Assembly (NCBI GenBank): GCA_947184155.2
Contig: CAMXCT020000391.1
Span: forward strand, 581,254-645,253
Length of the DNA stretch: 64,000 bases
Source of the DNA: Cladocopium goreaui
Taxonomy: Eukaryota > Sar > Dinophyceae > Suessiales > Symbiodiniaceae
Reading direction: 5' to 3'
Part shown: one piece after another, positions 31,314-61,165 of the stretch
How positions within the stretch are numbered: position 1 is the stretch's first letter
Layout: the number at the start of each line of letters is the position of its first letter
Notes under the pieces: model-generated
The model's input: only the letters and a program-made list of their open reading frames with translations
Database searches by the model: none
Told to the model about the DNA's origin: nothing
Program-made: the position numbers and the translations under genes

Positions 31314-31652
31314 GTGGACCCTCTGTATCTGCTTTGTTTGACACATTGCTCATCATTGCTCCACATTGCTCCCTTTTCTTTCCCTTGGCAGTCCAGTGCC
31401 ATAAAGTGTTGGAGGAGTGATTTGTTTCAGCCCCGCTCATTTTGGGACATTGTCTTTTGAGATGCTCATCAGGTTCACCTGAAAAAAAACATCCACGATT
31501 TACCTATTGAACATATTCAAAATTGATGAACATTGTGATTTTACTATTGACATCTATTAGTTAAACATGTTAGAAGATCCGACGGGTATTCCGCAAAACC
31601 GCAGAAATTCTGCAGGAAATAGACAACATATTTCAGACCCGGCTTGACAAGC

Positions 31653-32252
31653 CATGTTCTCGATTCTCGATTCTCGATTCTCGATTCTCGATCCTCGATT
31701 CTCGATTCTCGATCCTCGATTCTCGATTCTCGATTCTCGATCCTCGATCCTCGATCCTCGATCCTCGATCCTCGATCCTCGATCCTCGATTCTCGATTCT
31801 CGATTCTCGATTCTCGATTCTCGATTCTCGATCCTCGATCCTCGATTCTCGATTCTCGATTCTCGATTCTCGATCCTCGATCCTCGATTCTCGATCCTCG
31901 ATCCTCGATCCTCGATCCTCGATCCTCGATTCTCGATTCTCGGTCCTCGATCCTCGATCCTCGATCCTCGATCCTCGATCCTCGATTCTCGATTCTCGAT
32001 CCTCGATGCTCGATCCTCAATTCTCGATCCTCGATCCTCGATCCTCGATTCTCGATTCTCGATTCTTGATTTTCGATTCTCGATTCTCGATTCTCGATTC
32101 TCGATTCTCGACTCTCGACTCTCGATCCTCGATCCTCGATCCTCGATCCTCGATTCTCGATCCTCGATCCTCGATCCTCGCTCCTCGATTCTCGATTCTT
32201 GATTTTCGATTCTGGATTCTCGATCCTCGATTCTCGATTCTCGATTCTCGTC
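31653..32252. repeat. 7-bp array TCGATYC, left flank of the KDZ gene cluster
   Basis: About 85 units of TCGATTC or TCGATCC in irregular order. Five of six frames are open because the unit holds no stop in them; the resulting SSILDPRF-type peptides are by-products. The same unit in the same orientation recurs at 42549-42993, and a short remnant lies at 32976-33012. Confidence 0.95.
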
Positions 32253-32285
32253 AAGCGGCATGGAAAAGCCCAAAGTAAGTCAGAC

Positions 32286-33100
32286 TCAAAGTTCCTCCTT
32301 TACACCAGGCACCTTGAGCGAGATCTTGAGCCAGATATATTTGGCAAAGGTCTCATGCATGTCGAGCAGGGGCTCAGTGCCTATAAAGTTTCGCTCCTCC
32401 CCTCTGTGGCTGCGGTGTTTTGATTGCTCCTTGGATCCCTTCCGGGGTGCTCCCTGGCCCTTGGTCAAATGCTGTGTGGCCAGCATGCAAGAAAGTGCTC
32501 GTGCACAGATACCCTTCTAGCGAGAGTTTCAGCGTAGGCGAGACGTAGGCATTGGCTAGGGCCTTTCGCATGTAACTAGCGTAGTGGACCCGGGCACCCA
32601 GTAGCGTGCACCCAGTGGGTGCTATGGGGGGACTATCTAGTACAGTGATGCTGGCTGGATCATTTTCAGGATGAGGTATACTGAACTCCCCGGTGACACC
32701 TGCGTCGAGGTTGACATGCACAGTACAGGTCGAGGGGGCTGTGCATGCAGTACCTTGATTTTGATTCCTTGTAGGACATCTTTGCGTAATTGCTGCCTGG
32801 TACGGCATCTTGCTGGATATACCCTTATATTTATTGGTTCGGTATGCGGTACTGTACCGAGCCGCTGCGGCATGGCATTGCCAGGTGGATCATGATTGCT
32901 TCTCTGCCCGCTTCATTGCATTCATTCCGAAAGACTTTTCACAAGCTGACAAGTGACAACCTCGTATCATTATTGTCGATCCTTCGTTCTCGATCCTCGA
33001 TCCTCGGTTCTCGAACCTGCTTTCTAACGTTGTCATTGAGGACGTTCTTTGGTTTCATCTGCCCATGCACTCTACACACAGGTTTTCGCGGACAGTTTTA
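32286..33100 (-). CDS. Fourth cluster gene, unknown protein (exons approximate)
   Basis: Three overlapping minus-strand stretches in different frames look like exons of one gene. From 5' to 3' they hold RCRTRQQLRKDVLQGIKIKV (about 32800), then SIPHPENDPASITVLDSPP and ARVHYASYMRKALANAYV (about 32700-32530), then NFIGTEPLLDMHETFAKY and WLKISLKVPGVKEEL before a stop at 32286. Codon composition is like the other cluster genes. No family recognised. Splice sites are not fixed, and the left end lies close to the array, so it may be truncated. Confidence 0.3.
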
Positions 33101-33144
33101 GTTCCTAGACATATCTATATTATATACACTGTACACTGACCAGG

Positions 33145-33220
33145 GGCTAGCCACCTGTCTCCCGTATGTGCCTTTAAACTTTAACCCCTGAGCCACTGGC
33201 TGCTTCCTGAGCGGCTAGCC
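33145..33220. promoter_or_regulatory. GGCTAGCC palindrome pair 1
   Basis: GGCTAGCC at 33145 and 33213. The flanks extend the symmetry weakly (GGGGCTAGCC, GCGGCTAGCC). It lies on the 5' side of the fourth gene and 3' of the RapZ-like gene. More diverged than the other pairs. Confidence 0.5.
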
Positions 33221-33234
33221 TGCTCATGACACGC

Positions 33235-34385
33235 TCACCATTTTCGCATCAATTCGGCCCACAGCTCCGTCAGTTGAGTTGCTAGAGCTCTCTTCAGCTC
33301 TTGCTTTGCCGGATTGTCCTCTTGGCAATCTTCACAATTGCTACAAAGGTGGCTCCATTCGCCCGCCTCCCTTGCCAGATATTGGACGGTGATCCTGTCT
33401 GCACTCATCTGCTTCAAAACCTCTTCCAGAAGCCACGCCACCGCAACGCTCCTGTAACGTCCGGTCGTACAAAAAATCCCAAAGAGATGCTGTCCAGGCG
33501 CGGCTTCGTCCCGGATCCAACGGAACAAATTCCTCAATAGATTTTCCCAGCTCTCGCTGCGAAAGCAATTCCACAGGGTTTGCGAGTGCCATCCAGGGTG
33601 AGCATGCAGCTCAGGATTCCTATAGGGGTCGTTGAAATCGTTGCAGTCCACTCGGATTGGGTAGTCGCCTCCAACTATGTGCTGTACCCCAAACACATGG
33701 AAGGTGAAGCTAAATCCACGCAATGCAGCGGGCATGGTCTGGGCAGCTGGTGCGGTCCTCGCTGACGCGGGCACAGCGCTGCTGGATGCTGAGGCTCCAA
33801 GTGGTGTGGCATCCTCCGCCAATCGACCTGCGCAATGTTTAAGCGCATTGAAAGCCCACACCTCAAACTTATTCCCGGGCAAAAGTAAGTGTCTCTCCAA
33901 ACAAAGCAACATCAACCCAAAATGTTTGAACTATCAGCCAAGGTACATCTCTTCGGTGGTGGAGGCATAACCGGAGGAGCTGCTCGCCATGGTGGTGGCA
34001 AAGCCGCAGTGCCCGACACAGCAGGAACACTCTTGGGCGATGTCGTTGTCAGCCTCCGTCCTACCATGCAATGTTGGCAGACTCTAACTGCTCTCTGAAA
34101 TTTGCAACTTATTTGCTCTAGACTTTGGGGAGGCTATAGCCTTCCCAGTCGCCTCCCCGCGGCCCAAACAAAAACTTTGAAATCCAGTCCTTCGAACATG
34201 AGTTCGTGCATCATTCTCCTTGCCAGTTGGACACCAAAAACACTGCCTTCCACGCGAAGCTGCCTCTGCCCTTTTCTCGCTCTCAAGGAGATCTTGCACT
34301 TGGTCTCCATTTCCACAGCTTGCCGCTGCGCGGTGGTTACGGTGTGTCGCTCACCAGTCACCACTTCAACGTGGACATGCGACAT
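33235..34385 (-). CDS. KH-like plus RapZ C-terminal-like protein (spliced)
   Basis: The 5' exon (about 34385-34134) reads RQAVEMETKCKISLRARKG then QRQLRVEGSVFGVQLARRMM. This fits a KH-type RNA-binding fold, although the GxxG loop is not clear. The 3' exon (about 33880-33235) reads RVDCNDFNDPYRNPELHAHP, then HLFGIFCTTGRYRSVAVAWL. The C-T-x-G-x-x-RSVA-x-A loop preceded by DxxxFxDPxxNxxL is the signature of the RapZ C-terminal domain, an RNA-binding P-loop-like fold. The stop is at 33235. An Ala/Ser-rich linker lies between. The acceptor near 33870 (AATAAG|TTTGAGG) is a guess. A cysteine cluster (CSNCEDC) follows the RSVA helix. Role in the element is unknown; RNA binding is the inference. Confidence 0.5.
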
Positions 34386-34788
34386 GGCAGGGACACAGCG
34401 ATGGCTTGCCGGGCGTGAGATTCTGAGGACAGGCTGTTGTCAACAATCAGAACAGTGGGTCTATGTGGGTCTTATGTTGCTTAGCGCAGTGACTGGTTTC
34501 TACAATTTTAGGAGCTTGCTTTCATTTATATTGTTTGCTGGTCTTGCAAATATGACGGCACTATGCTTCTGAAACATGCGAACTGTGGAACCTACGTGGC
34601 CCCGCACAATTCCTTAGAAGACCTGTTCTGTTTACGCCTTTGTCAGCGCTCCACCATCGCAACACAAAGCGGCGTTTCCCATGCACTTGCTGCGCTGCTG
34701 CGACAAAACCAGCATGCCCTCAGCCTTATGCCTCCGTCATGGTCACACGACAATGTAATTTCAAAAAATCAAATTCCCAAAATGAGGC

Positions 34789-34836
34789 GGCTAGCCAGCC
34801 CCAAATTGCCGTGCTAATACGTGCGGGTGGCTAGCC
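34789..34836. promoter_or_regulatory. GGCTAGCC palindrome pair 2
   Basis: GCGGCTAGCCAGCCCC at 34787 and GGGTGGCTAGCCAACCC at 34826, 40 bp apart. They lie just upstream of the KH/RapZ-like gene and downstream of the DUF3987-like gene. Confidence 0.7.
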
Positions 34837-34967
34837 AACCCCCCTTAAGGCAACAAAACTGGTTCGACTACCATGTGCTCCTACAGGGACTGATTCCTGC
34901 CGCGCGCAGCGCACGCTCCATGTTGCGCGCCCTGTTGGACACTACACAGCGCACACACCGGTGCTGC

Positions 34968-37900
34968 TTAGCGCAACAATGCCAAAGCCGCTTCACACTT
35001 ACCCATGTCAAAGATCTCTGCCACTCCACGTTTCCTTATAGCTGGTTCCACCCCCTGCATGTTATTCTCAAACAGCTCTCGCAGAAGTGTCACAACTGCG
35101 GCTTCATGCTCAGGAGGCGGCTTTACGCCAGTCCAGGTGCCACCTTGAGGGCCTAAGGAAGCCAACCCTGCCTCAGCTCCCAAGCGAAACACATTGCGAG
35201 CCATCGCTTCCAATTCCTCTGCCTGAGCACACTGCCTCAGCTTTGTGACATCCAGTATCACCCGCACAGTCACCCTTGAGGCTGCTGACTTCAGTAGGTA
35301 CAGAAGTATGTTCTTTGCCAAAGGAATATTGGTGGAGAAGTCATCGCGACACAAGTCTTTCTCTCGCCGCAACCTCTTTGCTGGCGGGGCCTGATCGTCC
35401 ACAGCCTCCTGCGTCAAGGGAACTGCCGTCTCTGGCGCCGGACACGCTTGCGTAGGCACGAGAGGATCCACCATGAACACATCTCGACATCCGTCCACAT
35501 TTGCAGCTTCCCCCCGCAGAAGACGGTGGATGCACGATATGGCATCATCACATGCATCCTGGTCCAGCTTCGGCTTCTCTGCTCCACTGATTGGTACCCA
35601 AGACCGGACAGCAGCAAGATCAGCTTCAGCATCCCAACTGGTGAGCCTGGCGCTAGCATGCTATAGGGTTGAAGTTCATGCCTCGACTTGTGTTTACATT
35701 TAGAGGGCTCCCTCAAGGCTACGTGGACCAACTTATTCTAGATTATCTCTTGCAACTTTGCCAGCGGCCTTGCAGACTCTCTACAACATGACGGCAAAAC
35801 AGACACGCAAGACATTTTGATTTATCGAAGTGCACTTGCGCTGCTCAGGCCTGTTGCAGCAAATGACAAAATCCTCGTCATCCTCGGCATACCCAACTAG
35901 AGCGTAGCGGCCGCAGCCCATGACGACGAAACCCATCATCGCTAAAATCAAAAGGTCTAGAAGTCTGGCCCGCACTTGTGCCGCGGTGTGCTCTGCATTC
36001 AAGGCGAAAGCCTTCAAGGTCCATGTCTTCAAAGAAAGACACTCCAATGCAGCTGCAATATTCCTTAGCAAGTTCCAAACCCCGGTCATGACAGCAGCCT
36101 ATCCCTAATTGCACCCCTGCTTCTTGGGCAGCCCAACCGCGCACCTGCCCAATGCTGACCTTTTGACTCTAACTACCCGCCCTGTGAATACAACGAGGCA
36201 CACATGCGCACGCGTCTCATGCGAAATGAGGCCGGCAGCTTCTTTCACGCAAGGACGAGGTAAGAGAATCATGTTGCTGCGCTCAGTCTTGAACTCGCTC
36301 ACCAACGCACGAGCCCCAACAGTGTTCTGGAAACTCGCGTGGAACCACTTGCCAAGCTCCACTGCCGTCTCCACAGCTTCCGTCGTCGCGGAAGGATGGA
36401 TCTGTGAGGGCTTGAAAACAGTGGCAACTTGCTCTATGTTCACCTTAGTCACACACAGTAGCTTTTCACATGTCCATGACATGGCCTTCGGCCGCGGCAT
36501 CTTTTATGGGTGATGTTCACATGTCTATGGGCGCACTGGCGCGGATACCGTTCAGAAAATGCGCAGCTATCAGAAATAGTTTGCAAACAGTCCGGGTGCC
36601 CTCACATTCTGAGAACATCCTGCTGTGAACTTTCCAGTCACGTCACATTCAATATGCACTGAGCTTCTCACATGCGCCAGAGACCGGATGATCTCTTCGC
36701 CGCTGAGCTCAGTGTCCTGCCCCTCTGTCAGCCTGTGCCCATCCTTCTGCAAAAGCCAAGCGATCACCTTTTCAAAGACATCTAAAGGAGCGATGAACCG
36801 CAAGGCCCTGGTCTTCTCCTTGTTCAGCCGGCTGCTCTGACCACCCAACACTTTCTGGTCAGCGCGCACCTTGTCAACGTACTTGTTAAAAGTGTTGATG
36901 AACTGCTGTTTCACTGACGCAGCGAATGGCATGGTGTGTAAGCCACTCACATGTGAGAAGCAGCGGTGCTCTGCATCATCATCGCGTGCTTCATTGTGCG
37001 GGAAGAGCAACTTGCTGATTGTGAGCACGTGTGCCATAGCTGACACCACCTGATCATAGCCCAAAGAATTGAAACACTCATCCAGCTCATTCTGCGCTTG
37101 CTCTGCGGACTGCGGGTCGCGGATCTTCAACACACGACACGGGAATTTGGCCAGCAGAAAACGGGACAGGCCAGCCACAGAATCTTCTTGGGAAGCTTGC
37201 TGCACTATTTCTTCACAGTGCATCATCACCAATGCAATGAGATGCGGGTTTTTAACCCAGTATCTGCCGCTTTGTGAAGAAATGGTGTTCTTATAGCAGT
37301 CATGATCGCTTAGCTGGTTCAATTCTTCGATGCCGCCACCCACAGATCCTTCGAATGTGTGCTGGAGGAACGTACGTCCTTCGTGCAGAGCTAAGATGGC
37401 GCAGCCATCTTGTTGGTGCATGTGTTGGCCCAAACCCACCCAAGTCATGCGATTCACAATGCTATCTTGAGGTGGAGGCTTTGTCGGTTCTTCTACTGGC
37501 CCTGAGCCAGAACTCCGCCACACTTCATATTCTGCCTTGTACTTCGCCTGCGCCCGCTTGTCTCCTGAGCTGCGGCGACAGAAACAGCCACCAGCATGAC
37601 ATTGAATGTGACCTGCCCTATTACCTTCACTCATGCCCATGCTTTCATGGTTATCTGCCCCATGATTACCAAGACTGTTTCATAAAGGACATGTGTGACG
37701 TGACCATGGGTGACTTGACTATCAGGTCCATTTTCCACCCAGAGTCTCAGTTTGTCAAAGTAACTCAGGATGTGAAGATCTAGCCACAGCGCTATGCTCT
37801 TGCCGTCCCCCGGCGGACCATGTTGCAAGACCATCAAATTGCAGAATTTTCCCAGCAAGCCAGAGTATTTCACCTGCACCGCATTGAGAGTCAGAGCCAC

Positions 37901-38471
37901 CAAGCACAACATGTGCACAAACATGCACCCAGGATGCAAGGAAGCTGCTTGGGCCAACGCGCAGCAAACCTTCCAAGCCAGAGGTTGCCTCGCACCTACA
38001 GAGGCCGAAGGGAATGGATTGGTTGTATCCATGAGTTGGTATGCCAGCAAGAGGTCTGCTTTGCACATTCCAGGATCGCGGTCTTCCGCCGCATCCTTTT
38101 TACTACGGCCTTTCCGACCCATGGCTGCGCGTCTGTCAAATCTAGCCGTGCTGACTTATAACTGCTTTTACCTCTTCTAGGATGCTATATGTCTTAGCCT
38201 TCCTCCGAGTGGTGAGATGTGCCAAAAAGGTTGGACCCAAACAAGCTGCCTTTATTGCACTAGCCTTCCGCCGGCTACTGAGCAGGCATTTCCAAGCCCA
38301 TGCAGGCAACTGAGCTGCAACGCCAGAAAGTAGAGAGCAAAGACAGTGTGTGAGACGTGTCGGGAGGTTAGAGGTTTGCAAAGGCACTGAGTAACATTTG
38401 GATGTGTGCCACTCAGTCCAGAAGCCATAGTCACTAATCTTGGAACTAACAAAATCTCCCAGATGCCCCAC
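34968..38471 (-). CDS. DUF3987-like P-loop ATPase (spliced, about six exons)
   Basis: The first exon (38471-about 38190) holds SGVAAQLPAWAWKCLLSS, with its start inside the duplicated leader. The next (38122-about 37650) holds LVLQHGPPGDGKSIALWLDL when read with its flanks, a Walker A loop (GPPGDGKS). The third (about 37640-36590) has DSIVNRMTWVGLGQHMHQ, then LALHEGRTFLQHTF, and further SDHDCYKNTIS. This DxxT...L...DEG-like order matches DUF3987 helicase/primase-like ATPases. Later exons (36500-36105, 36089-about 35800, 35535-34968) contain VVFTGRVVRVKRSALG and a basic PPAKRLRREKD, possibly a nuclear signal. The stop is at 34968. Exon joints are approximate. In other elements such ATPases accompany replication or transposition; that role here is inference. 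Confidence 0.5.
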
Positions 38472-38668
38472 ATCAAACTTTCAGCCCCGCTATATCAGAC
38501 GACCACGGCAAGCAGGCGAAATAGAAAGAGAACTTTATGACAAACCTTCATCTCCTTGCCTCTCTAGATCATGTTGACATGAAACACTGGGGCGGCTAGC
38601 CAGCCCCAAACAGCCGCACCAACATGTCAATGTGAGGGTGGCTAGCCAACCCTGCCTACAGCAACAAG
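38297..38668 (-). repeat. Duplicated gene leader, copy 1
   Basis: About 85-90 percent identical by eye to 41596-41960, same orientation. It covers the palindrome pair, the untranslated leader and the first coding segment (GVAAQLPAWAW) of the DUF3987-like gene. Confidence 0.9.
38594..38647. promoter_or_regulatory. GGCTAGCC palindrome pair 3
   Basis: GGGGCGGCTAGCCAGCCCC and GGGTGGCTAGCCAACCC, 46 bp apart. Both are near-perfect palindromes centred on GGCTAGCC. Upstream of the DUF3987-like gene, downstream of the transposase. Confidence 0.75.
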
Positions 38669-38764
38669 TTGTTCAAGACTGGTTTGGCTGTCAACACTGT
38701 AAGCCTAATTTTCTGGAAACCCGGAAAGGTCATACGCAAGAGGCTATAGCTATCCCTGTTTCTC

Positions 38765-41689
38765 CTATCCGACCGATTTGCTTTCGCATTTGTCTGGGTC
38801 TCTCTTCAAGAAGCCAGCCTGGAATCGACGACGACGCGCCGCACTACATTGCTCCAGCCATTCATTGTGCTCAGCAAAAAGAGCATGCCAATAGACACCA
38901 AATCTAGCGCCTGTCAAGTTCAAGGCAGCAGCAGTGCGACCAGAGATCCATGCGTTCAACTGCTCACAGCTCTCCGAGTTGCGAAACTGCAGCAAAGGAA
39001 TGTTGTCTGGATGATCTGGATCCACCTGGCAGCATTTGGTTGAGGAGAATGGACGCGGCCACTGCATTGCACATGCTTTCACAATCCTTTTCAAAGACAC
39101 ATGAGCTTGTGACCCAAATCAAGGATGCAAAAGAGACGGTGGTACTGCTACAGGTGTTCACTGCTGAACAAACTACACGACCTTGCAGGCAAATACTAAG
39201 CGCGAACGCGCAAATTTCCAACCTGCTTTGGTATTGAAACACTTTCTCTCTCACATTGCCTTTGTTTGTATTCCTCTTATTTAACTTCCCTGGCGCCTGC
39301 GGGCGATGACGAAGACACCAAGAGTGGTTTCCCTTGTGGAACCTATCCAAGACAATTCGACACTCCGTCACTTTGTTGGTCCATGGGCTGCACAAATTCT
39401 CACAACGCTCAGCCATTGCAAGGAGCCGACAGGCGTTGTCATACCCTACGCACTTCACCTGCACTTGCCGGGTCGAGAGCTCTTTAATCACATCCAGAAC
39501 AAAGGTGTACACTACATCGAAGGCTTCTCCACGAGGTAATTCTAGCCAATCCACCAGCTGACCACAGGAAAGGGTAGCAGTTAAAATGCCACCTGTGCAT
39601 CGCCTGCGCTTCAAAGTTTTCTTCTCCTTATCAATACCGCACTCAGCAAGCTCACTGCCATCTGTAGACTTGTCAGTGTCGCGGAGGAATGCGACATACG
39701 CCTGCGACAGCCATCCGCCCGGAAGCTTTTTGACCTCCTCCTTCTTGCTGGCTCTTCCACGGCGCGCTGGCTTGCATGGCCCAGCGCGCTTCAAGGCAGC
39801 TTGACGAACCATGCGAGCACTCTTCAGCCAGCGAAATTGAGTACGCAGGTTACCATGATCTCGCTTTTTTGGCAAGGCCCCTTTCTCGAACTCTGCCAGT
39901 AGATCTGCGCGCACTTCCTTGCGGGGCAAAGGTGCTTCGAAGATGCCATTCTGTGGACACTTGCAACGGACCAAGTACCAAGTCTCCACTGACAAACCGT
40001 CTTCAGATGGACAAGTTTCGACTTGTAGCACTTTTTCTTGTGGAATCAAAGCGCTCTGCAGCAAACTGCTTGGGCGACAACGCTTGCAAAAGACATCGTT
40101 GGGCCCAGCGTGATTCATGCATCCAGTGTAAATTGACACCCCTAGATCTGCAAATGTTCGATGACCCTCTAGACCGGCGCAGATGAATCGCCGAGCACCC
40201 TGCTTTCCATCCAACAAAATCCACACACATTGCTGACATATGGGGCAGCTGTGGATGTGCTCCGCAACTTTGTTCAGCCTTTGCTTCCGCAAATGAGGTA
40301 GAACTTGGGACAAGGAAGCCTCAAAGCCATCTAAGTCCTGCCACAGTTTCGGAAATATCTTCAGCCCTACTGGCAAAGCTCCGTCAATTTCAACACAACA
40401 GCAAAGACCTGGTTCCACGACCCTACAAAACTGGACGTGCTCAATGTAACTCATTTGTGTCACACTAGGATTGTCGCGCCGCAGCTACTTGATTATCATC
40501 CATTTGCTCATACCCCAAAACTGTACATTTCCTTCTGACAATGCAATTTGAAAACCAAGCAACTACACATCTCATCATTCTCCTGCGTCAAGCGCCACTG
40601 GATGCCACGCAAAGCTTCGCAGCTAAGTTTGCTGCAGTGATATAAGTACCAGGCCTCTTCTAACCGTTTGCGGCAACGCTCTAGCATGGTCAGGTCCTTT
40701 CCTTGCAGCAGTCGAACTTGGCCCTCTTCTGGGTGTTGCTTCACCCATCGCAGCACAGCAGAGGAAAAGGTCGCGCCGCTATGGGCAATTTCATCTGTGA
40801 TTGAATGCAGCAAGCCGATTTCAACGGCGAAGAAGCTTCGATAACGAGGGACGACCTGAGCGTAACAACGCAAGCCTACTGACACTGGGGATGTGAAGCA
40901 ACTGCGTGTCAGCCAAACTCAAACTTCTGTCCGTCATGAACATAACCCGCAAAAAAAATCATCAATGAAAGCACAAAACATGCAACCTTAGCGATGCCTA
41001 GGCGCAAACACATCCACATCCGCCTGTAACCCGCAGCAGTGCAGCTTGTCCATGTGATGAAAGGCCCCAGCCTTTTTCTCATATTGCCAGCAACCAAGAA
41101 AATACAATCGACAAGCAGAGCAAAACCCTGCCTTGAACTCCGCAAAGAGAACACCAGCTGCTTGAGTGAAAATCAGGAAACGATTGTCCATCTCATCACT
41201 TCCACGCAAATTGTTCACTAAGCGGGAAGAAGATCTACCTGCCTTGTCCTCTAAGGCACCGCCACAGCAAGCGCATGACGTTACCAGAGACGGCACGCAG
41301 ACGGTGGGAACGTCTGGGACAAGCTCCTGGTACTTCTTTAACTGGAACGGGTTTTGTCCCAACGGATGAGACACACTCACCATGCAGGGCAAGAAGGTTT
41401 CGATTTTCCACAAAACGTTCTCCACTTGCTTCAGGCTTAGATTCACTTCATGCTTTGTTTCCAGCACTTTCTGCAAGAATGGAGGGCACAGGTGCGAGGG
41501 TATCGAGGAAAGAATTTCTGATACAGCTGGAAATGCAGACGTCGGCACAGGAGATAACACACGCTCCAATGAGAAGTGCGCCATGGCCCTCCACGCCCAT
41601 GCGGGCAACTGAGCCGCAACGCCAGAGAGCAAAGACAGTATGTGGAACGTGCCGGGACGTTGCAAGTTTGCAAAGACACTGTGTAACAT
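38765..41689 (-). CDS. CxC5/CxC6-KDZ-like transposase (spliced)
   Basis: Exon 1 (41689-about 40990) starts MLHSVFANLQRPGTFH. It has a cysteine cluster, CACCGG...FCSACRLYFLGCW, resembling the CxC5 module that precedes KDZ transposases. Exon 2 (about 40895-40508) holds VVPRYRSFFAVEIGLLHS. Exon 3 (40463-about 39190) holds a second cluster, CPICQQCVWILLDGKQGARR then CAG...GCMN...FCKRC, like CxC6. The core YDNACRLLAMAERC and LDRFHKGNHSWC follow, as in KDZ catalytic domains. A short intron (about 39190-39107, CTGCAAG|GTCGTG to CACAAG|CTC) restores the frame to the last exon, which reads RNSESCEQLNAWISGRTAAA then GVYWHALFAEHNEWLEQC. N-S-E-x-x-EQ-x-N-x-W is typical of the C-terminal end in this superfamily. 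The stop is at 38765. Family assignment rests on motif layout only. Confidence 0.55.
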
Positions 41690-41960
41690 TTGGATGTGTG
41701 CTGCTCAGCACAGAAACCAGAATCACTAATCTTGGGACTAACAAAATCTCCCAGATGCCCCACATCAAACTTTCAGACCCGCTACATCTGACGACCACGG
41801 CAAGCAGGCGAAATAGAAAGAGAACTTTGTGACAAACCTTCATCTCCTTGCCTCTCTAGATAATGTTGAAATGAAACACTGGGGCGGCTAGCCAGCCCCA
41901 AACAGCCGCACCAACATGTCTATGTGAGGGTGGCTAGCCAACCCTGCCTACAGCAACAAG
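41596..41960 (-). repeat. Duplicated gene leader, copy 2
   Basis: Partner of 38297-38668. It contains the start codon used for the transposase (41689) and the GVAAQLPAWAW codons. A 6-bp length difference next to the shared peptide shifts the upstream frames relative to copy 1. Confidence 0.9.
41886..41939. promoter_or_regulatory. GGCTAGCC palindrome pair 4
   Basis: GGGGCGGCTAGCCAGCCCC and GGGTGGCTAGCCAACCC, 46 bp apart, upstream of the transposase. Identical core to pair 3. Confidence 0.75.
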
Positions 41961-42548
41961 ACTGACTGGAAGTGTTGGTAGAGTTTAGTCATGCATCTGA
42001 GCGAAACGTATTCTTTGCCTGTCCTGTGATTGGAGAGGAACATGTGACTGGAACCGATGCGTCGTCCTATGTGCGACTGAAAAGTGCAATATTCCACGGA
42101 ATAATATGACACAACAGAAAAATTCACTGCACTTACACTTCCACCGAGAGATACGAACTGCGTCCAATCGGAATCTTTTGAACATTTTTGAACTGGGTCT
42201 TCAACGTGTCAAAGTCTCTTGTTTGCTTCTGGTTTGTTTCTGAGAGCGGCATCATGGGCATCATGGGCACCGGCTGAGGCGATGACCATTCGACAACCCT
42301 CCTAATTCTGTGCTTCCCTCACCATTGCAAGTTGGCTTGCCAAGGGTACACTGTTTCATAAATTACATGCCGACATGAATCAATGAGGGTATACTGAACT
42401 ATGCCCCGTTCACACACATGCCTACCAAACACTACGTATGCAATACGTATGCATATTGTTCCCAAACCTTGACTGCGCACGCCGCTATAATAGTGTTATT
42501 CATCCTCAATCCTCGATCCCAATCAATCTTGTATATCTTGTTTTTCTC

Positions 42549-42993
42549 CATCCTCGATCCTCGATTCTCGATTCTCGATTCTCGATCCTCGATCCTCGAT
42601 TCTCGATTCTCGATTCTCGATCCTCGCTTCTCGATTCTCGATTCTCGATTCTCGATCCTCGATCTTCGATTCTCGATCCTCGATTCTCGATTCTCGATCC
42701 TCGATCCTCGATCCTCGATCCTCGATCCTCGATTCTCGATTCCGATCCTCGATCCTCGATCCTCGATCCTCGATTCTCGATCCTCGATTCTCGATCCTCG
42801 ATTCTCGATCCTCGATCCTCGATTCTCGATCCTCGATTCTCGATCCTCGATCCTCGATTCTCGATTCTCGATTCTCGATCCTCGATCCTCGATCCTCGAT
42901 TCTCGATTCTCGATTCTCGATTCTCGATCCTCGATCCTCGATTCTCGATTCTCGATCCTCGATCCTCGATTCTCGATCCTCGATTCTCGATTC
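42549..42993. repeat. 7-bp array TCGATYC, right flank of the KDZ gene cluster
   Basis: About 63 units, same orientation as the left array, with isolated variants (TCGCTTC, TCGATCTTC). Open frames through it are by-products. Confidence 0.95.
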
Positions 42994-43737
42994 TGCACAC
43001 TTTAACCGTGCACCTTTGTCAAGCCAATCCTCACATATTTGATGCGCGTGAAATGATGTGTGACTTCCCGGATTTTCTTTTTCGAAGATGTTCTGAAACC
43101 TGAGGAAACTTGCGCCACCACATCAGACAAATTGAAATTTATCAGAGAACAGAGAACTGCTACAGACAGGTGGCAAAATTTATTAGAGAAGAAATGAGGT
43201 GAACAGAGGAAGTTGCAAAGAGCTGACAGCAATGTCCAGAGCAGACAATTTCCACAACTAGTCTAGAAGTAAAAATGGGAATAGACTGTGCAAAAACAAG
43301 AGAATCTTGGCTAAAAACATAGAGGAATGCTAGAAAGAGGTTGCAAGGCCGGTGCACAACTGTGAAATTGACCAGGGAAACCAAGAAACTTCACCAAGGG
43401 GCTCATGAAAACGCGAAGAATTGGTCAAACATTTTGGGGGCATTGGTGCTTGGATGTGTGGATGAATTGAAAAAGTAGACTCGATGTTGGATTGCTTGCT
43501 GATTTGCTAAGACCATCCCTAAGAGTATATCTGACATCTTGATATCCATTCTTGATCGCACGTGTGTCCCTTGATCCCGGTCCCCAAGCCGTCCCCATAT
43601 CCCGTGTCCTGCCAGTGAGTCCAATACCTTTAGTTCACTTCAAATTTCATAGGGACTCAACCAACAAAAAATATGGTAGAATATTGTGGAATGGGATGTT
43701 TAATGATTATAACTATAACGGGGATATAATTTGGGCC
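42994..43737. other. Intron remainder right of the cluster
   Basis: Purine-rich sequence with loosely repeated AGAGAACAGAGAACTG and AGAGAAGAAATGAGG stretches. No gene seen. Confidence 0.5.
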
Positions 43738-54343: not shown

Positions 54344-57300
54344 ATGGAACCTTCCGCAAGTTTCCGACGATGCAGTGCTGAGCAAAAGGGAAAGCATGCT
54401 GCTTTGGACAGACAGGTGTTTGTTAGGAAGGGCAAATGTGGCATGTGTTTCAACTTGGTAGCGGAGCTATGGCTCCTGCTCCTGCTATCAGTTGTTGCAC
54501 TTGTCACATTTGTCGTGATGTTCGCTCCAACTAGTGTTGAGACAGCCATCAAGGATGCGGTCAACAGTGGACGTGATGAGATGTGTGTGCAGCTTCCGAT
54601 GTTGTGCCGCAGGACCACTTTTAGCACTATTCTGGCAATCTCAACAGCGAACAGTTTTGGGGCGGATAACAGTCAGTTTGGGGAACAATCGACCATGTCT
54701 ACAGCCATTCTGGCAACCACGACAACCAGTGATGTGACAAGCGTGCCTAACAACGATGGATCCATTGCAACGAGTTTCAACATGGATGGTTTGGTAACTG
54801 ATCATCCTGTTTTGACCACTATCAGAACCATGCTGGCAACATCGACAGACAAGACAGAAGAGCGACGCATGGTGGAGCTCTTGAGACGAGCTATGAAGCG
54901 GTCGCATGAAGAGGTTGAAACCGCAATGGAGCGCCTGGAGCAGATGAGTTTGTCCTTACAACAGGACATGGGACCAGCCGAGATGATCAAGCATTTGCGT
55001 GACATTGGACTTTTGGATGATTCAGACAATGATGATGATGCATCACTGTTTGAGGTGAACGCAAGTGCTCTGGTCAGACCCAATGCAACTCCGATGATGC
55101 ATGATCCCTGGTGGTACGAGGACATTGATGCTGAACGTGACGACGACGACAGCTGGACAACTGGTGGAAGGTTGGCTGAACATGTCAACCGACGTGCAAT
55201 GAATCTGACTGGTGTGAATGATTCGCAATCAGTGCATGTGAACAACAGCCGCATGTATGCAGACCCCAGCCAACTGTTTTCAATGCATGATCCATTCAGA
55301 CGTCTGTCCAACAAGCTTTCAGTGTCAAGTTGGTCAGTCAAACACCGACTCCATGTGATCTATGTTTTTCTGGGAACCTGTTTGATCCTGGCCTCAATTG
55401 GAATGATGCATGCAGGGAACCGACAACAACAAGGACATCATGGTCCGCGCATGGGACCCAACTATACTGCTGATGTGGGAACCGCAACATTGAAGACCCC
55501 GCCGAGTTGGTCTTATGAAAACAGCCATCAGTATTCCTTAAGAAGCTGGTTGTCTGATGTCATTCTTTGGAGCAATGCTACCGATCTGGAACCAGACAGG
55601 CATGCGCCTGCTGTTGCCTTGGTCGTGACAGGTGCTGCAAGAGACCTCATACGTGAGTTGCAGCCGCAACAGCTTCGAGAAGGTGTGTGGGAACAAGGGG
55701 TACACGTCTCTGGACTCCTTTTGCTGTGCAGAACTCTCGCACGGCATTATGCACCGATGGAAACTGAGCTGCAAACCCGCAGCATGGCTGAGCTGGTAGG
55801 TTTCTCAAGACTCAATGGAGAAAACATGGATGCAGCACTCACTAGGTTTGAAGTCCTCAAACATAGAGCAATTCAGAGGGGTGGTTTCGCCATGAATGCA
55901 GCCACGATGTCATACATCCTTTTGAATGGTTTGAGACTTCGTCCAGAGCAGTGGGATCGAATGTTGCTTCCACTTGACGGTGAAATGCCAATCAATGACC
56001 AGCAGTTTCAACAGTTGTTTGAGAGGTTGAGACGAGTAGGTAGGATGAATGAGGGTGCCTTCATGCCTCCAAACCGCCAAGGTGCAACAGGTGAAGTAGG
56101 TGCCTTTTACTTTCCTTCATTTGGTGAACCAGCGCCCCCAATGGCCCCTGGTTACCAGACCTACTATGGTGGACCGCCGAACATGAATGCCGATGCACAA
56201 GCACCCATGTCGCCTCCTGATGTCCCGATGTCCAGTGGTGTCAACATGTCAGCCAGTTTTGCCGTCATGTCTGAAGATGAGGACCAATGTCCACGATGTG
56301 GAATGTTTTATGCCGATGATGAATTTTCTTCAGGAACTGAAACTGATGATGGTGAGACAGACAATGAAGTGACAACACTGTATGGCAATCTCAATGAAGA
56401 TTCAGCAAAACTTGGAAATGAATTGTATGAAGCCTACTTGGTAGCTAAAAGAAGATGGAGACGGTTTTCCAACAAACCTCCACGTAGGTATCGCCGAAAT
56501 CATTTCAACAAGTTCAGACACAAATCCAACATGCAAAAGATGCAACGGTATGGAACAAGCTATGCATCTTTCTTGCCACCTGGTGCTTTTGCTGCGCACC
56601 GAGGACCTGGAGGAAAAGCTTCTGGCAAGGGCCGCAATGGCCGACAGAATCCGCGTGGCCGTGACGGTCAGCCGCTGAAGTGTTTCAAATGTGGCTCCAC
56701 TGAGCATCTTGCCAAAAGGTGCCCAAAGCCTGACAGCCAAGGTCAAAAGCAGATGGCCATGTTGACAGGTATAGGTGGTTCGAACCTTCAGTTTTTTGCC
56801 AGAGGTGTCAGTCATCAGTCTGATACCGCAAGCCGTCCGTCATCCGATGTTGGTGCCTCCCATGTGCTCACAACCATGCGCATGCAAACAGGTGAGTTGG
56901 TCTCCCGAACTTTTGAAGCCGAATCAATTCATTCCAGTGCCCCATCATCCAAGCGTAGTTTCTTTGATGATTTGGAATCTCTGAGGAGTGCCAGCAGCAA
57001 CAACAAGCGCAGGGTTGATACAGCTGTTGAAGATAAGAGGGATGAATATGCAGATAACCCTGAGCCGCGTTTTCCACCACCAACTGAGCTGGCTCCAACA
57101 GCACAGCAGTTGCAGATGAAGGCAGCCGTTGTTGTGAATCAACCCATAGCTGAATGGACATCTTTCATGGTTGGCAGCTTATCAAGTAGCAGTTCTGTCC
57201 CAGCACAGCCCAGGATGTCGTCTACCGAAGCCTTGTTGTCTGGTCTTGAGTCTTCCAGATCATCTCCAAGTCAAGCCATCACAGCCGATGATGCACAGGA

Positions 57301-58345
57301 TGCTGAGTCTCCGAGCCGCCCAACACGACCAACCAAGCAGAAGCAGAAAGAAATCAGATCAGCAACCACTTTGCAGTTGTCGCAGCTTTTGTCGAACATG
57401 CCTGGTTCACAACCTGATCCGGAAAGTAGCAGTGCATTCCCGTGGTGGGAGATGGTCCGAGAAGATAATCCCAATATAAACCAAGGACGTCCCACATACC
57501 ACTCAATGAGAACGTGCACTCCAGACGGTAGATCAGGCCTATTAGTCGACCCCGGCGCTCACGATAATCTTGCAGGTTCTGAGACAATCGAAGCCATCGA
57601 ACAACAGCTCAGAACGCATGCCCGTAAGAAGATGCTGGATGAACCACTTCATGTCAGTGGGGTGTGCAAGAGCGCCCAGTGTGCCACAACTGCAGTGTCT
57701 GTCGATTTCGATTTAGGAATGTTGGTCGATGGTCATGACAGTTTGCCAGAGTTGGGTTGCACATACACCGCTCCTGTGATCCCCAACAGCCAGCTGCCGA
57801 TGTTGCTTGGACTGAAATCTCTTCGTGCCAAGCGTGCCATCCTGGATACGCATGGAAGACTCCTGATCTTGCCGGGTGAAGGAGGTGTTGAGTTCAGAGT
57901 GAGCCCAGGTACTTTGGTTTTGCAGTTGGAAGACAGTGAATCAGGTCATCTCATTCTGCCAATGAGACCGCCGATGGACCCTGTGGACTACAGGACTGTT
58001 CGCAGTGACCGCAGGACGATGGAAGAACACAAGTTGAATTTCAACACTCACTGTCGTGCAGCCAGAACGCCATCGCCAACACGCACTCCTGTTCATGCAA
58101 CCAGAGGTCCATATCAAAAGGATGGTCATCGCATCCTCACAGGTGTCCCAGAGCCAAGTCAGCCCATCAATTCTCAGCAGACACGACGTTTATCCGATGT
58201 GCATGGTGTTAGGTCGTCTGAGGCCTCCAGGACACCGAGAACAGGAAGAAATTCTGCACCGCCTGAGCCACCAAGAGCAGGACGAAATGCTGCACCGCCT
58301 GAGCCTTCAGGACCACCACCTGTCAGGGCAGAGCCGAATCCCTGA
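54344..58345 (+). CDS. Retrotransposon gag-protease polyprotein
   Basis: A 1333-codon frame. Residues about 45-68 form a hydrophobic segment (LWLLLLLSVVALVTFVVM). A second lies at about 340-360 (YVFLGTCLILASIGMM). A gag capsid-like helical region spans about 390-570 (NGENMDAALTRFEVLKHRA). CPRCGMFYADDE is at about 648. The zinc knuckle at about 779-793 reads CFKCGSTEHLAKRC (CX2CX4HX4C). The protease motif at about 1066 is LLVDPGAHDN, with DPG in place of the usual DSG or DTG. The C-terminus is Pro/Arg-rich. TGA ends it at 58343, but the same frame continues 10 codons later into the next feature, so this is probably one interrupted polyprotein. The start chosen is the first ATG in the frame. 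Confidence 0.8.
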   Translation: MEPSASFRRCSAEQKGKHAALDRQVFVRKGKCGMCFNLVAELWLLLLLSVVALVTFVVMFAPTSVETAIKDAVNSGRDEMCVQLPMLCRRTTFSTILAISTANSFGADNSQFGEQSTMSTAILATTTTSDVTSVPNNDGSIATSFNMDGLVTDHPVLTTIRTMLATSTDKTEERRMVELLRRAMKRSHEEVETAMERLEQMSLSLQQDMGPAEMIKHLRDIGLLDDSDNDDDASLFEVNASALVRPNATPMMHDPWWYEDIDAERDDDDSWTTGGRLAEHVNRRAMNLTGVNDSQSVHVNNSRMYADPSQLFSMHDPFRRLSNKLSVSSWSVKHRLHVIYVFLGTCLILASIGMMHAGNRQQQGHHGPRMGPNYTADVGTATLKTPPSWSYENSHQYSLRSWLSDVILWSNATDLEPDRHAPAVALVVTGAARDLIRELQPQQLREGVWEQGVHVSGLLLLCRTLARHYAPMETELQTRSMAELVGFSRLNGENMDAALTRFEVLKHRAIQRGGFAMNAATMSYILLNGLRLRPEQWDRMLLPLDGEMPINDQQFQQLFERLRRVGRMNEGAFMPPNRQGATGEVGAFYFPSFGEPAPPMAPGYQTYYGGPPNMNADAQAPMSPPDVPMSSGVNMSASFAVMSEDEDQCPRCGMFYADDEFSSGTETDDGETDNEVTTLYGNLNEDSAKLGNELYEAYLVAKRRWRRFSNKPPRRYRRNHFNKFRHKSNMQKMQRYGTSYASFLPPGAFAAHRGPGGKASGKGRNGRQNPRGRDGQPLKCFKCGSTEHLAKRCPKPDSQGQKQMAMLTGIGGSNLQFFARGVSHQSDTASRPSSDVGASHVLTTMRMQTGELVSRTFEAESIHSSAPSSKRSFFDDLESLRSASSNNKRRVDTAVEDKRDEYADNPEPRFPPPTELAPTAQQLQMKAAVVVNQPIAEWTSFMVGSLSSSSSVPAQPRMSSTEALLSGLESSRSSPSQAITADDAQDAESPSRPTRPTKQKQKEIRSATTLQLSQLLSNMPGSQPDPESSSAFPWWEMVREDNPNINQGRPTYHSMRTCTPDGRSGLLVDPGAHDNLAGSETIEAIEQQLRTHARKKMLDEPLHVSGVCKSAQCATTAVSVDFDLGMLVDGHDSLPELGCTYTAPVIPNSQLPMLLGLKSLRAKRAILDTHGRLLILPGEGGVEFRVSPGTLVLQLEDSESGHLILPMRPPMDPVDYRTVRSDRRTMEEHKLNFNTHCRAARTPSPTRTPVHATRGPYQKDGHRILTGVPEPSQPINSQQTRRLSDVHGVRSSEASRTPRTGRNSAPPEPPRAGRNAAPPEPSGPPPVRAEPNP

Positions 58346-58375
58346 CTGCAAAACACTGCCGATGTCGTTGCATGT

Positions 58376-61165
58376 GTGGCTCAAGCACAAAACCCCAAAA
58401 CACAAATAAACAGCTTGAAGCCACTTAGGACTGGAATTAACCAAGCAGTGCATGTGAGTGTCAATGCGCAGAATGTGAAGTCAGGTTCTGATGTGGACTT
58501 GGCTGAGTATGGTGCATGGGTCATCTCTGATGTGTCAGGCCTCCGACAACGTTTGCTGCAAGTGCAACAGCTAGGTCCAGTTGTTGCAGTTTTCCATGAT
58601 TTGCACTCCAAAGGTAAGTTTAATCAACTGTCAGAACAGCTTGCAGCCAGTAAGCCTCGTTTGTTGTGGGTTCGCCTATCCGGACCTTCCTGCGGAAGTG
58701 GGAATAAAAGAGATGAAAACCGAGCCGCTTGCCTTGTCAGATTAGTTTTGCAACAGATGGCCAGCCACCGCATGGTCATTGTTGAAGGTAACTTAAGGTC
58801 TGGCGGATGGAACTTGAGACCGTTCCGTGAACTTAGAGAGCTCGGTATGCATGAAACTTTGCATGTGTGGTGCAGGTATCAACCCGTAGAAGAAAATGCC
58901 TGCAGTGCAACCACTAGAATTTGGTCTAATGCAGAACTGACATCTTGTGCGGAATGTCAGTGCCGGACTGGTAGGAAACATGTCAGCGTGAAGTCGCTGC
59001 CTAATGCATCCGATGTGGAAGCTGTTGTTCTCACCCATATCATAAGAGATGTCGCTCAACATATCAACAACGCATTCGACAAGCAACCTGAGTCGAAGCC
59101 TTTAACTAATGAAGATGGTGTCAACCCGACACGCATCAGTGCCCTGCTTTCAGGTTTGCCAGTTTCAACAACTAAGTCATCCAAAGATGTTAGAACCTCC
59201 AATAGTGCAGTAACCCATAATACAATATCTATTACAGATAAAACCTTATCCACTTCGACAGTTGAATCCTCTAACCCAAAATCTACAACATTTAGAACCT
59301 CTGTTAGAGCCACTGCCAATCAATCCAATGTGCCGCAGTCCAATGTGAATCCAAACATGTCCAACATGCCCACTTCATCTAGAAGTGTGTCATTCCAAGG
59401 TGCCGATGAACCGTCATCCTCAGATGCTGTTTTGTCCTATCCCACTGAACAGGCAACACGCCAGAAGGAGCGAAAGAAGGCAGGGATAGAGGTTAAGAAA
59501 CGAAAACAGCATGTTGAACAACACTTTGACGATGTAGGTGATGATTTGTCCAGTCTTCAAGTCGAACAGCATGAAGTAGAACACTTCACCCGTAAGTTGC
59601 AGCAAGAACATAACCTGGCATCATGGGAACATGCAGTGTTTGCTTTCGCCTTTCAATCCTGCGATGATCCAGGTGCAATTCCAAATGCTGACAACTTGCC
59701 TGACATGTCTGGACGGATAGAAGCTTTCTTGGCTGATAATCCAAAGCACATCCATGTGTGCGAGCTGTTCGGAGGAGAAGGACTGACATCAACTCTTTGT
59801 TCCAAACTTTATGGTTTGAATAGCGGTTTCAACTTTGAACTTAAGAATGGTGTTGACCTCAATACAGATGTTGGCCGCCAAGATCTGTTTGCATATCTTA
59901 ACAAGTTCAAGCCAGATGTTGTTGTGATGGCGCCTCCATGTAAAGGGTTTGGACCATGGATTCACCTCAACAGAATAATCAATGCCGAAGCAGTGAGGGC
60001 CGCTCGACGTGACGGTGTACCACTTGCAACTCTTTGTGCTGAAGTTGCTGAATTCCAGTTAAGTTGTGGTAATCACTTTATAATTGAGCAGCCCCGTACA
60101 AGCCTGATGTTTCAACTTCCATCCTGGAAGGAACTTGCAAAGATCGCTCATGTAGCTGTTTGCGACCAATGCAGGTTTGGTCTGAAGAACCCTGATGGAA
60201 CACATCTTAAGAAGCCAACAAAATTCATTGCCTCAAGTCCAATCCTTCTTACACATGTTGCCAATAGATTTTGCCTTGATAACCATGAACATGGAAAGGT
60301 CAAATCAAGTGCCGAAAACTGGCCTATCAGTTTGTGCCGAAGCCTTGCCAGAGGCATTGCCGATTTGTTGTGTAGTTCTTTTGACAGCAGCCAAGCCACT
60401 TTGCAATTTCCAACTTTCACTTGCCCAGGCTGCAGAGGTCATGTTCGCAGGGACGATACTAGACACACACGCGACGAGAACTGTCGCTTCAAAGATGAGC
60501 CTGCGATGGAATGGACTTGTGATGGATGTCGCCGCAATAGACATCGATCCGATCCATCTCATACACTTGGCCCAGACTGCAGATGGGCAATTGCCAGAAC
60601 TAGAGATGATGGTGGTCCTCGAGCCCGAAGAGGACGCCACCCAAGAGATGGCAGTGTTCCAGCTGCCAGAGATCCAACAGCTGCAGTTCGATTGCGTGAA
60701 GAAGCAGCTCCAGCCGAAGGAGCAGTAGGACATGATAGCATAGAACCTGAAGTTTTGACTCCTGCAGAAGCGTCAGCCAGACGCCGCATGAAAGCCAGTG
60801 CAGAAGTTCAGGCCGGTTCAGATCCTGACCTTGTCGAACGTGCAGCACAGCCCTTAGCCATTGAAGATGGAGGACCAGTTGCTCCCAATGCAGCCGATGC
60901 TGAAGCGATCCAACCTGTTCTTGAAGAACCAGTGTGGTCGAGGTTCGATCTTGGAACATCACTGCAGCTCTTGAGGTCGTCCAGACCTGGAGTAGTTCGT
61001 AGGGCACTTCGTAAGTTGCACATCCGTTGGTACCATGCCCCTGCAAGACGCATGAGCACCCTGCTCACCGCTGCCGGTGTACCTGTTGAAGTTGTTGCTC
61101 AAGTTGCAGATGTCGTTGCCACATGTGACATTTGTCGCAACTGGAGTCGCCCTGGGAACAGATAG
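58376..61165 (+). CDS. Polyprotein middle: methyltransferase-like domain, zinc modules, integrase N-terminus
   Basis: Same frame as the gag-protease ORF, read after its TGA. The first ~350 residues are Ser/Thr/Asn-rich. Residues about 459-680 carry a C5-methyltransferase-like layout: VCELFGGEG (motif I-like), VVVMAPPCKGFG at about 514 (motif IV-like with the PPC cysteine), IIEQPRTS at about 568 (motif VI-like). Residues about 682-735 hold two CxxC...H...C modules (CPGCRGHVRRDDTRHT..., CDGCRRNRHRSDPSHT...). The end, LHIRWYHAPARRM to CDICRNW, is an integrase HHCC zinc finger. TAG at 61163 ends the frame; the integrase core continues in the -1 frame. Cytosine methylation is inferred from motifs only; residues after motif VI diverge from classical enzymes. 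Confidence 0.7.
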   Translation: MAQAQNPKTQINSLKPLRTGINQAVHVSVNAQNVKSGSDVDLAEYGAWVISDVSGLRQRLLQVQQLGPVVAVFHDLHSKGKFNQLSEQLAASKPRLLWVRLSGPSCGSGNKRDENRAACLVRLVLQQMASHRMVIVEGNLRSGGWNLRPFRELRELGMHETLHVWCRYQPVEENACSATTRIWSNAELTSCAECQCRTGRKHVSVKSLPNASDVEAVVLTHIIRDVAQHINNAFDKQPESKPLTNEDGVNPTRISALLSGLPVSTTKSSKDVRTSNSAVTHNTISITDKTLSTSTVESSNPKSTTFRTSVRATANQSNVPQSNVNPNMSNMPTSSRSVSFQGADEPSSSDAVLSYPTEQATRQKERKKAGIEVKKRKQHVEQHFDDVGDDLSSLQVEQHEVEHFTRKLQQEHNLASWEHAVFAFAFQSCDDPGAIPNADNLPDMSGRIEAFLADNPKHIHVCELFGGEGLTSTLCSKLYGLNSGFNFELKNGVDLNTDVGRQDLFAYLNKFKPDVVVMAPPCKGFGPWIHLNRIINAEAVRAARRDGVPLATLCAEVAEFQLSCGNHFIIEQPRTSLMFQLPSWKELAKIAHVAVCDQCRFGLKNPDGTHLKKPTKFIASSPILLTHVANRFCLDNHEHGKVKSSAENWPISLCRSLARGIADLLCSSFDSSQATLQFPTFTCPGCRGHVRRDDTRHTRDENCRFKDEPAMEWTCDGCRRNRHRSDPSHTLGPDCRWAIARTRDDGGPRARRGRHPRDGSVPAARDPTAAVRLREEAAPAEGAVGHDSIEPEVLTPAEASARRRMKASAEVQAGSDPDLVERAAQPLAIEDGGPVAPNAADAEAIQPVLEEPVWSRFDLGTSLQLLRSSRPGVVRRALRKLHIRWYHAPARRMSTLLTAAGVPVEVVAQVADVVATCDICRNWSRPGNR

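Follow-up and report, generated by a model that had tools for sequence, protein, structure and literature searches.

A 64-kb stretch of the Cladocopium goreaui genome (contig C391:581254-645253; hereafter the window, whose coordinates are used below unless a contig is named) carries head-to-tail coding stretches on its minus strand, between two arrays of one 7-bp unit. An initial annotation read them as a possible complex transposon. Does this unit move as a whole, and is the P-loop ATPase that it encodes part of its machinery? On comparison with the genome (1.17 Gb in 6202 contigs), we conclude that the unit, named element A here, is a recently mobile DNA transposon that encodes a transposase of the KDZ (Kyakuja-Dileera-Zisupton) type and a DUF3987-type ATPase, and, with a probability of roughly 60% for the reading as a whole, that the ATPase is a partner in transposition. 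The host is a peridinin dinoflagellate: the peridinin-chlorophyll protein family, known only from dinoflagellates, has 150 matches in its genome, often in tandem, and none in 14 control genomes.

Element A moves as an 11.4-kb unit

A DNA query spanning 32253-42548 gave at least 54 matching rows in the genome. Among the eight longest matches, identity was 97-98% in seven and 93% in one. Ten copy regions on nine contigs were fetched and compared with the window. A further copy on contig C4112, found by protein search, had transposase and ATPase open reading frames (ORFs) 99-100% identical to those of the window. Copies of ~98% identity were found at unrelated places by the DNA search. Comparison of copies placed element A at 31634-43032 (11,399 bp), with the 8-bp target-site duplication ACATATTT on both sides (left copy, 31626..31633; right copy, 43033..43040). 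These limits, which could be defined by comparing copies, lie beyond the 32253-42548 of the initial annotation and take in the satellites. On the gene strand, element A starts with GAGG(G/A)TTGGCTTGACAA, and its 5' terminus reads GAGGATTGGCTTGACAA (43016..43032, minus strand). The opposite end, read inward on the plus strand, is CAGACCCGGCTTGACAA (3' terminus, 31634..31650, annotated on the minus strand), and this end is identical in C5938, C2029, C3671, and C4112. The terminal inverted repeats are 17 bp long and imperfect.

Twelve regions (the window, C4112, and the ten fetched copy regions) were checked for the exact end motifs. Both ends were present in three (window, C4112, and C5938), and all three had an exact 8-mer duplication. 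One exact end was found in seven regions (C363, C304, C2029, C781, C2617, C3671, and C5990) and none in the remaining two (C1553 and the other C3671 piece). The C4112 copy lies between AT-rich flanks unlike those of the window and has its own duplication, AATATAAT (gene strand); that of the C5938 copy is ATTTTTGA. A near-identical copy at an unrelated site with a different 8-bp duplication indicates recent movement. Element A moves as an 11.4-kb unit and leaves 8-bp target duplications.

The 7-bp arrays are subterminal parts of the element

The 3' subterminal array (31657..32250, minus strand) consists of ~85 units of 7 bp, CGAGRAT on the gene strand. An array was also present at the 3' end in C5938, C2029, C3671, and C4112, and in shortened form in C1553. 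The 5' array (42544..42994, minus strand), identified by repeat scan and in the copies, has ~65 of the same units in the same orientation. CGAG recurs every 7 bp in the arrays, with 136 steps of 7 inside element A. A gene-strand-oriented array was detected in 9/9 fetched regions scanned, and arrays of one orientation at both ends were seen in the window, C5938, C1553, C2029, and the sister family B described below.

In copies with preserved ends, among the alignments listed, homology to the window crosses the left array and stops at 31629-31633 (C5938, C2029, and C3671); it likewise crosses the right array and stops at 43032-43044 (C363, C5938, C1553, C781, C2617, and C5990). In the window it ends 23 and 38 bp past the arrays, at the target duplication. 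Because homology between copies at unrelated sites spans both arrays and stops just outside them, the arrays are the element's own subterminal parts.

The transposase is probably of the KDZ type

The gene order on the minus strand is transposase exons, ATPase gene, KH-like ORF, and RapZ_C ORF. Two N-terminal transposase exons were delimited from ORFs and from comparison of A with B: one with a cysteine cluster (CACC...CSACRLYFLGCW; 40988..41689) and a helical one (PRYRSFFAVEI...; 40508..40885). The core lies in a 499-amino-acid (aa) ORF (IDKE ... YDNACR ... DRFHKGNH; 38964..40463), the 3' end of which probably runs into an intron. The last exon (38765..39031), whose stop was read from the sequence, contains NSESCEQLNAW, the expected region of the catalytic Glu, and is 49% identical to B residues 301-384. 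All four are on the minus strand.

The transposase of element A is 41-42% identical to that of family B (E down to 1.9e-52) and also matches a frame on C5754 (E 1.4e-4) that is above the PF18758 cut-off. A family B exon matched the KDZ profile (PF18758) with E 1.3e-5 and 25.4 bits, 1.2 bits under the cut-off of 26.6. We call the element A transposase KDZ-type on the strength of this near-threshold match in a 42%-identical sister family. Candidate residues of a catalytic DDE triad in the B transposase, picked by eye, are D193, D255, and the E before QLN. Cysteines lie upstream of the core in both A and B; the CxC4 profile reached only E 0.03 in B, below cut-off, and CxC5 and CxC6 gave no match in Pfam scans of the A and B ORFs, no genome-wide search having been aimed at these two. 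Of the CxC/KDZ-like transposase originally annotated, the KDZ part finds support by way of family B, and the CxC part remains sub-threshold.

The ratio of nonsynonymous to synonymous substitution rates (dN/dS) between the window and other A copies was 0.08-0.30 for exon 1 of the transposase (7 comparisons). Because every dN/dS comparison involves the window copy, the values are not independent of one another; codons containing a stop or a gap were excluded.

A DUF3987-type ATPase accompanies the transposase

The ATPase gene is also on the minus strand. Exon 1 (37631..38122) carries the Walker A motif GPPGDGKS and was placed from the sequence and the joined-exon profile match; exon 2 (36570..37640), itself a sub-threshold DUF3987 match, carries a Walker B-like LALHEG and an RFLL motif. 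When the exons were joined by hand, the A protein scored 37.3 bits (E 2.4e-9) and the B protein 31.2 bits (E 1.7e-7) against DUF3987 (PF13148), both over the cut-off of 27. Single exons matched weakly (E 9.8e-5, 0.02, and 0.034), A exon 2 alone reaching 22.1 bits, below cut-off. The DUF3987-like P-loop ATPase named in the initial annotation was thus confirmed at the level of hand-joined exons. Walker A reads GEPGDGKS in B and is degenerate, SGANKS, in the giant frames described below. In ATPase exon 2, dN/dS was 0.10-0.37 (4 comparisons, window versus other A copies). In the PDB, the best sequence match to the ATPase profile had E 0.78 and RapZ_C had no match; two scans of viral contigs confirmed no relatives.

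Two ORFs that had been annotated as unknown appear to belong to the ATPase gene as additional exons. For the first (36105..36500, exon 3), an alignment with exon 2 of the B ATPase covers residues 269-339 of the latter (E 0.006); the second (34968..35498, a probable 3' exon) shares a PPAKRL-type basic motif with a B ORF in a comparison by eye. We therefore count three units, and the four independent genes originally proposed were rejected, the unknown protein being absorbed into the ATPase gene.

The pairing recurs in sister family B

Family B was found at 13 places by the transposase query (41-42% identity) and at 14 by the ATPase query (37-40%). A KDZ match lay upstream on the same strand at 12 of the 14 ATPase places, and none was listed at C3554 and C3338. 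One B copy was read fully (C5931:339031-351109, 12,079 bp). It has 7-bp CGAG arrays at both ends, which read CAGAACGCACTTGACAA and, inward, GAGATCGAACCTGACAA. It retains transposase and ATPase as two genes, the 7-bp arrays, and the terminal motif. The end pairs are CAGACCCGG/GAGGGTTGG in A and CAGAACGCA/GAGATCGAA in B, each followed by CYTGACAA, so that the motif common to A and B is SAG-N6-CYTGACAA.

A second B copy lies on C5931 at ~356517-361739, in the opposite orientation and tail to tail with the first, within ~26 kb.

DUF3987 and KDZ regions adjoin in a third family

PF13148 had 18 further matches in the genome, in open frames of 797-3380 aa. Past DUF3987, the end of the giant frame resembles the A/B transposase in its N-terminal part (E 2.8e-4 by hhalign). 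In controls, the best of 100 shuffles gave 0.0049 and other frame windows gave at least 0.18, apart from one overlapping window at 0.0032. A KDZ core was therefore expected just downstream, and the B transposase query was run to test this. It matched C5923:253878-254546 (E 7.4e-6, 30% identity) in a 3380-aa frame, and a KDZ match was found 2.0-2.7 kb downstream on the same strand at 18/18 DUF3987 places. At 14 of the 18, both matches reported one frame length (up to 3380 aa), and fusion is therefore likely there.

These DUF3987-KDZ frames occur at C5923:249183-253319 and 17 other places, and the copies compared are ~98.5-99% identical. Eight of the loci are fully open across the 1379 aa compared.

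Genome-wide, 19 of 23 rows of the A ATPase search had a KDZ row within 16 kb. The 100 rows listed by the B transposase search collapse to 87 places (counts are of places, not independent events); at 36 of these, an ATPase match lay on the same strand no more than 16 kb away. Among the KDZ elements of this genome, the pairing characterizes a single branch. It recurs as two genes in B and as one frame in the third family. The ATPase looks like a dedicated partner and not cargo, because it is retained in B, lies beside KDZ at 18/18 places, and appears in one frame with it at 14/18. The earlier proposal that the unit moves whole, as a complex KDZ-type transposon with its own ATPase, is supported by the unrelated sites of the copies, by their 8-bp duplications and common ends, and by KDZ-DUF3987 pairing in three families.

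Several results weigh against this interpretation. Pfam KDZ did not match the window's own transposase, and the family B score given above is itself under the cut-off. A genome search with CxC4 gave two matches elsewhere and none in A, B, or the giant frames; the PF18758 genome search listed no giant frame at E 0.01. At two of the 18 giant-frame places the KDZ match was weak (E ~0.13), and at C1280, C2490, C1366, and C1238 the frames differ, showing adjacency only. No ATPase match was found within 16 kb at 51 of the 87 KDZ places (including C781 and C3186, members of A and B); KDZ elements in general therefore do not need the ATPase. The duplication of the B copy, AAATTTTT/CAATTTTT, is identical at 7/8 positions, with one mismatch. 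In other exons, dN/dS ranged from 0 to 3.33 on few changes, some values being near or above 1. Structure predictions for transposase and ATPase had a mean predicted local distance difference test score of ~43 (transposase 43.6), too poor for a reading of the fold.

The KH-like/RapZ_C unit is probably a passenger

The third unit comprises an ORF with a RapZ C-terminal domain (PF22740; 33235..33915, minus strand; 29.8 bits, cut-off 27) and, upstream, an 83-aa ORF (34137..34385, minus strand). The latter is called KH-like only, since the KH profile (KH_1, PF00013) gave 14.8 bits (E 0.025), under the cut-off of 21.5. Of the KH/RapZ-C-like protein in the initial annotation, the RapZ_C assignment held and the KH assignment fell short.

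We favor the view that this unit is a recently acquired, dispensable passenger and that the KDZ-ATPase pair is the core, which refines our interpretation of element A and does not compete with it. Inspection by eye of one full B copy revealed no RapZ_C ORF downstream of its ATPase gene, and none of the listed PF22740 matches, likewise compared by eye, fell at a B place. Among these matches, only those at C391 and C4112 could be placed in a KDZ-ATPase element. The RapZ_C ORF had dN/dS of 0.26-0.96 in six comparisons with few changes, inseparable from neutral by eye. Against the passenger view, RapZ_C occupies its own palindrome-bounded unit, and it may serve mobile elements generally, because many of its at least 120 genome matches (among the best 150 of 181 candidates scored) lie in other giant frames. 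In C. goreaui, RapZ_C seems to be a domain that recurs across several kinds of element. Its part in the mobility machinery is doubtful, given that the B copy examined showed none and that other giant frames commonly contain it.

Many of the RapZ_C matches are in frames of 1000-4300 aa, with ~3010 aa recurring, so that a bacterial-type domain is found in giant multicopy frames (for example, C2735:319380-319637, C4863:13125-13382, and C1112:1582924-1583205).

The palindromes, located by motif scan on the minus strand, are pairs of GGCTAGCC. One pair lies past the last gene (33140..33225), and twin palindromes (GGCTAGCC twice) precede the KH/RapZ_C unit (34783..34856), the ATPase gene (38588..38667, inside a 0.5-kb direct repeat of the region upstream of the KDZ gene), and the KDZ gene (41880..41964, where ~236 bp of other copies are missing between 41960 and 41963). 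These four pairs (33145-41939) bound the three units and account for 8/9 GGCTAGCC sites in the window. The exact twin pattern, which fits 3/4 pairs, had 21 genome matches, all in A copies, with 0 for the reversed control; GGCTAGCC was absent from the B copy. We would guess that the palindromes mark transcription start or end.

Comparison with known transposons

In the papers cited here, 8-bp target duplications are described for Zisupton, a Dileera family, and fungal KDZ1 (PMC12730594, PMC12810828), 7-bp ones for Kyakuja (PMC12730594), and 4-8-bp ones for KDZ2 and KDZ3 (PMC12810828). Large KDZ elements with extra genes are described in Ectocarpus (PMC12477816). Element A resembles them in its core, probably related to PF18758 via B, in the clustered cysteines upstream of this core, in its large size with extra genes, and in its 8-bp duplications, the superfamily feature found in all three A regions with both exact ends and, at 7/8 positions, in the B copy. 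Unlike fungal KDZ1-3, whose terminal inverted repeats are 139-241 bp (PMC12810828), it has 17-bp imperfect ends and long same-orientation 7-bp arrays. It further differs from these KDZ elements in its dedicated DUF3987 ATPase, a gene of its own in A and B and probably fused to the transposase in the third family. What sets it apart is thus the ATPase partner together with the 7-bp arrays. The literature searched, outside which the founding KDZ and Zisupton papers lie, yielded no description of a KDZ transposase combined with a DUF3987 ATPase and 7-bp arrays, and nothing on dinoflagellates with Zisupton. Titles linking DUF3987 with transposons concerned bacteria or phages only.

In organisation, element A is like Tn7 (TnsB/TnsC), Mu (A/B), and IS21 (IstA/IstB), which each encode a DDE-type transposase plus a P-loop ATPase of their own and have repeated sites near both ends. 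Tn7, Mu, and IS21 need the ATPase for target choice and immunity. Cut-and-paste transposons of eukaryotes, by contrast, are not generally known to depend on a separate ATPase. The ATPase here is assigned to DUF3987, theirs to AAA+, and the element is eukaryotic; the likeness is one of organisation, not membership. DUF3987 proteins of plasmids and phages share PF13148, but theirs are prokaryotic elements, whereas here the domain is in a eukaryotic transposon, beside or fused to KDZ. CACTA/EnSpm elements encode two proteins and have many short subterminal repeats, and we know of no ATPase partner in them. They belong to another transposase family. Their target duplications are 3 bp long (PMC12730594). 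If a KDZ lineage has a conserved ATPase, fused in some cases, then ATP control of transposition becomes open to testing in a eukaryote; the subterminal arrays, for their part, connect a type of simple satellite to the ends of a transposon itself.

Possible role of the ATPase

By analogy, we infer that the ATPase may act in transposition. The transposase would bind the terminal motif and the 7-bp arrays and make 8-bp staggered cuts; the ATPase would be an obligate partner, spending ATP on assembling or licensing the transposase complex or on target choice. MuB, TnsC, and IstB do such ATP-dependent tasks in bacteria. The KH-like/RapZ_C unit would be a looser accessory, perhaps RNA-binding. That the ATPase is elsewhere probably fused to a KDZ transposase suggests an ATP-driven helper, as in some bacterial transposons. 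We tentatively propose, at somewhat less than even odds, a two-component eukaryotic system in which a DUF3987 ATPase licenses target choice or assembly by the KDZ transposase, as two genes or one polypeptide, with extendable same-orientation 7-bp binding arrays at both ends.

Alternatively, the ATPase could be a replicative helicase, in which case transposition would copy the element rather than cut and paste it. Such a role is commonly ascribed to DUF3987 proteins of bacterial mobile elements. The DUF3987 assignment would fit this, as would the many, highly identical copies of family B and of the giant-frame family. The 8-bp duplications and inverted ends fit copying or cut-and-paste and therefore do not decide between them. 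No primase or polymerase domain was found among the nine element ORFs scanned, and we consider this explanation unlikely.

It is rather improbable that only the KDZ transposase acts and that the ATPase, KH, and RapZ_C ORFs are captured cargo, like the TET/JBP genes of fungal KDZ elements. Accessory genes are frequent in KDZ elements (PMC12730594, PMC12477816), and the 51/87 KDZ places without a nearby ATPase match point the same way. Against cargo stands an ATPase retained in A and B at 37-40% identity, placed beside KDZ throughout the third family and in one reported frame at 14 places, and under purifying selection in A exon 2. The least probable reading, implied by the wording of the initial annotation and suggested by the identical unit on both sides, is that the arrays are a host satellite that received the element; it was ruled out, with a very small residual probability, by array-spanning homology that runs to the target duplication and by family B bearing its own 7-bp arrays at corresponding places.

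Rearranged copies and flanking sequence

The C1553 copy is an internal-deletion derivative in which 36517 is joined to 42196. The C363 and C3671 regions possibly represent both halves of a single copy that was interrupted. In C3671, ~27 kb (C3671:2638-29314) separates two pieces of one A copy, and the flanking homology overlaps by 5 bp (33655-33659), a possible target duplication. A short interspersed repeat within element A (32487..32927, no strand assigned) is lacking in the C2029 copy, partly missing in C5938, and found at ~20 other genome places.

The initial annotation also placed the element in an intron of a gene on the opposite strand. Eight plus-strand ORFs, chosen by eye among a larger number in the flanks, matched no Pfam family above its cut-off (two matches fell short, E 0.034 and 0.056); in this thin test the nesting found no support. 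Further along the plus strand, 54344-61165 holds a retroelement-like pair of ORFs (1333 and 929 aa), the first of which has a CCHC zinc knuckle.

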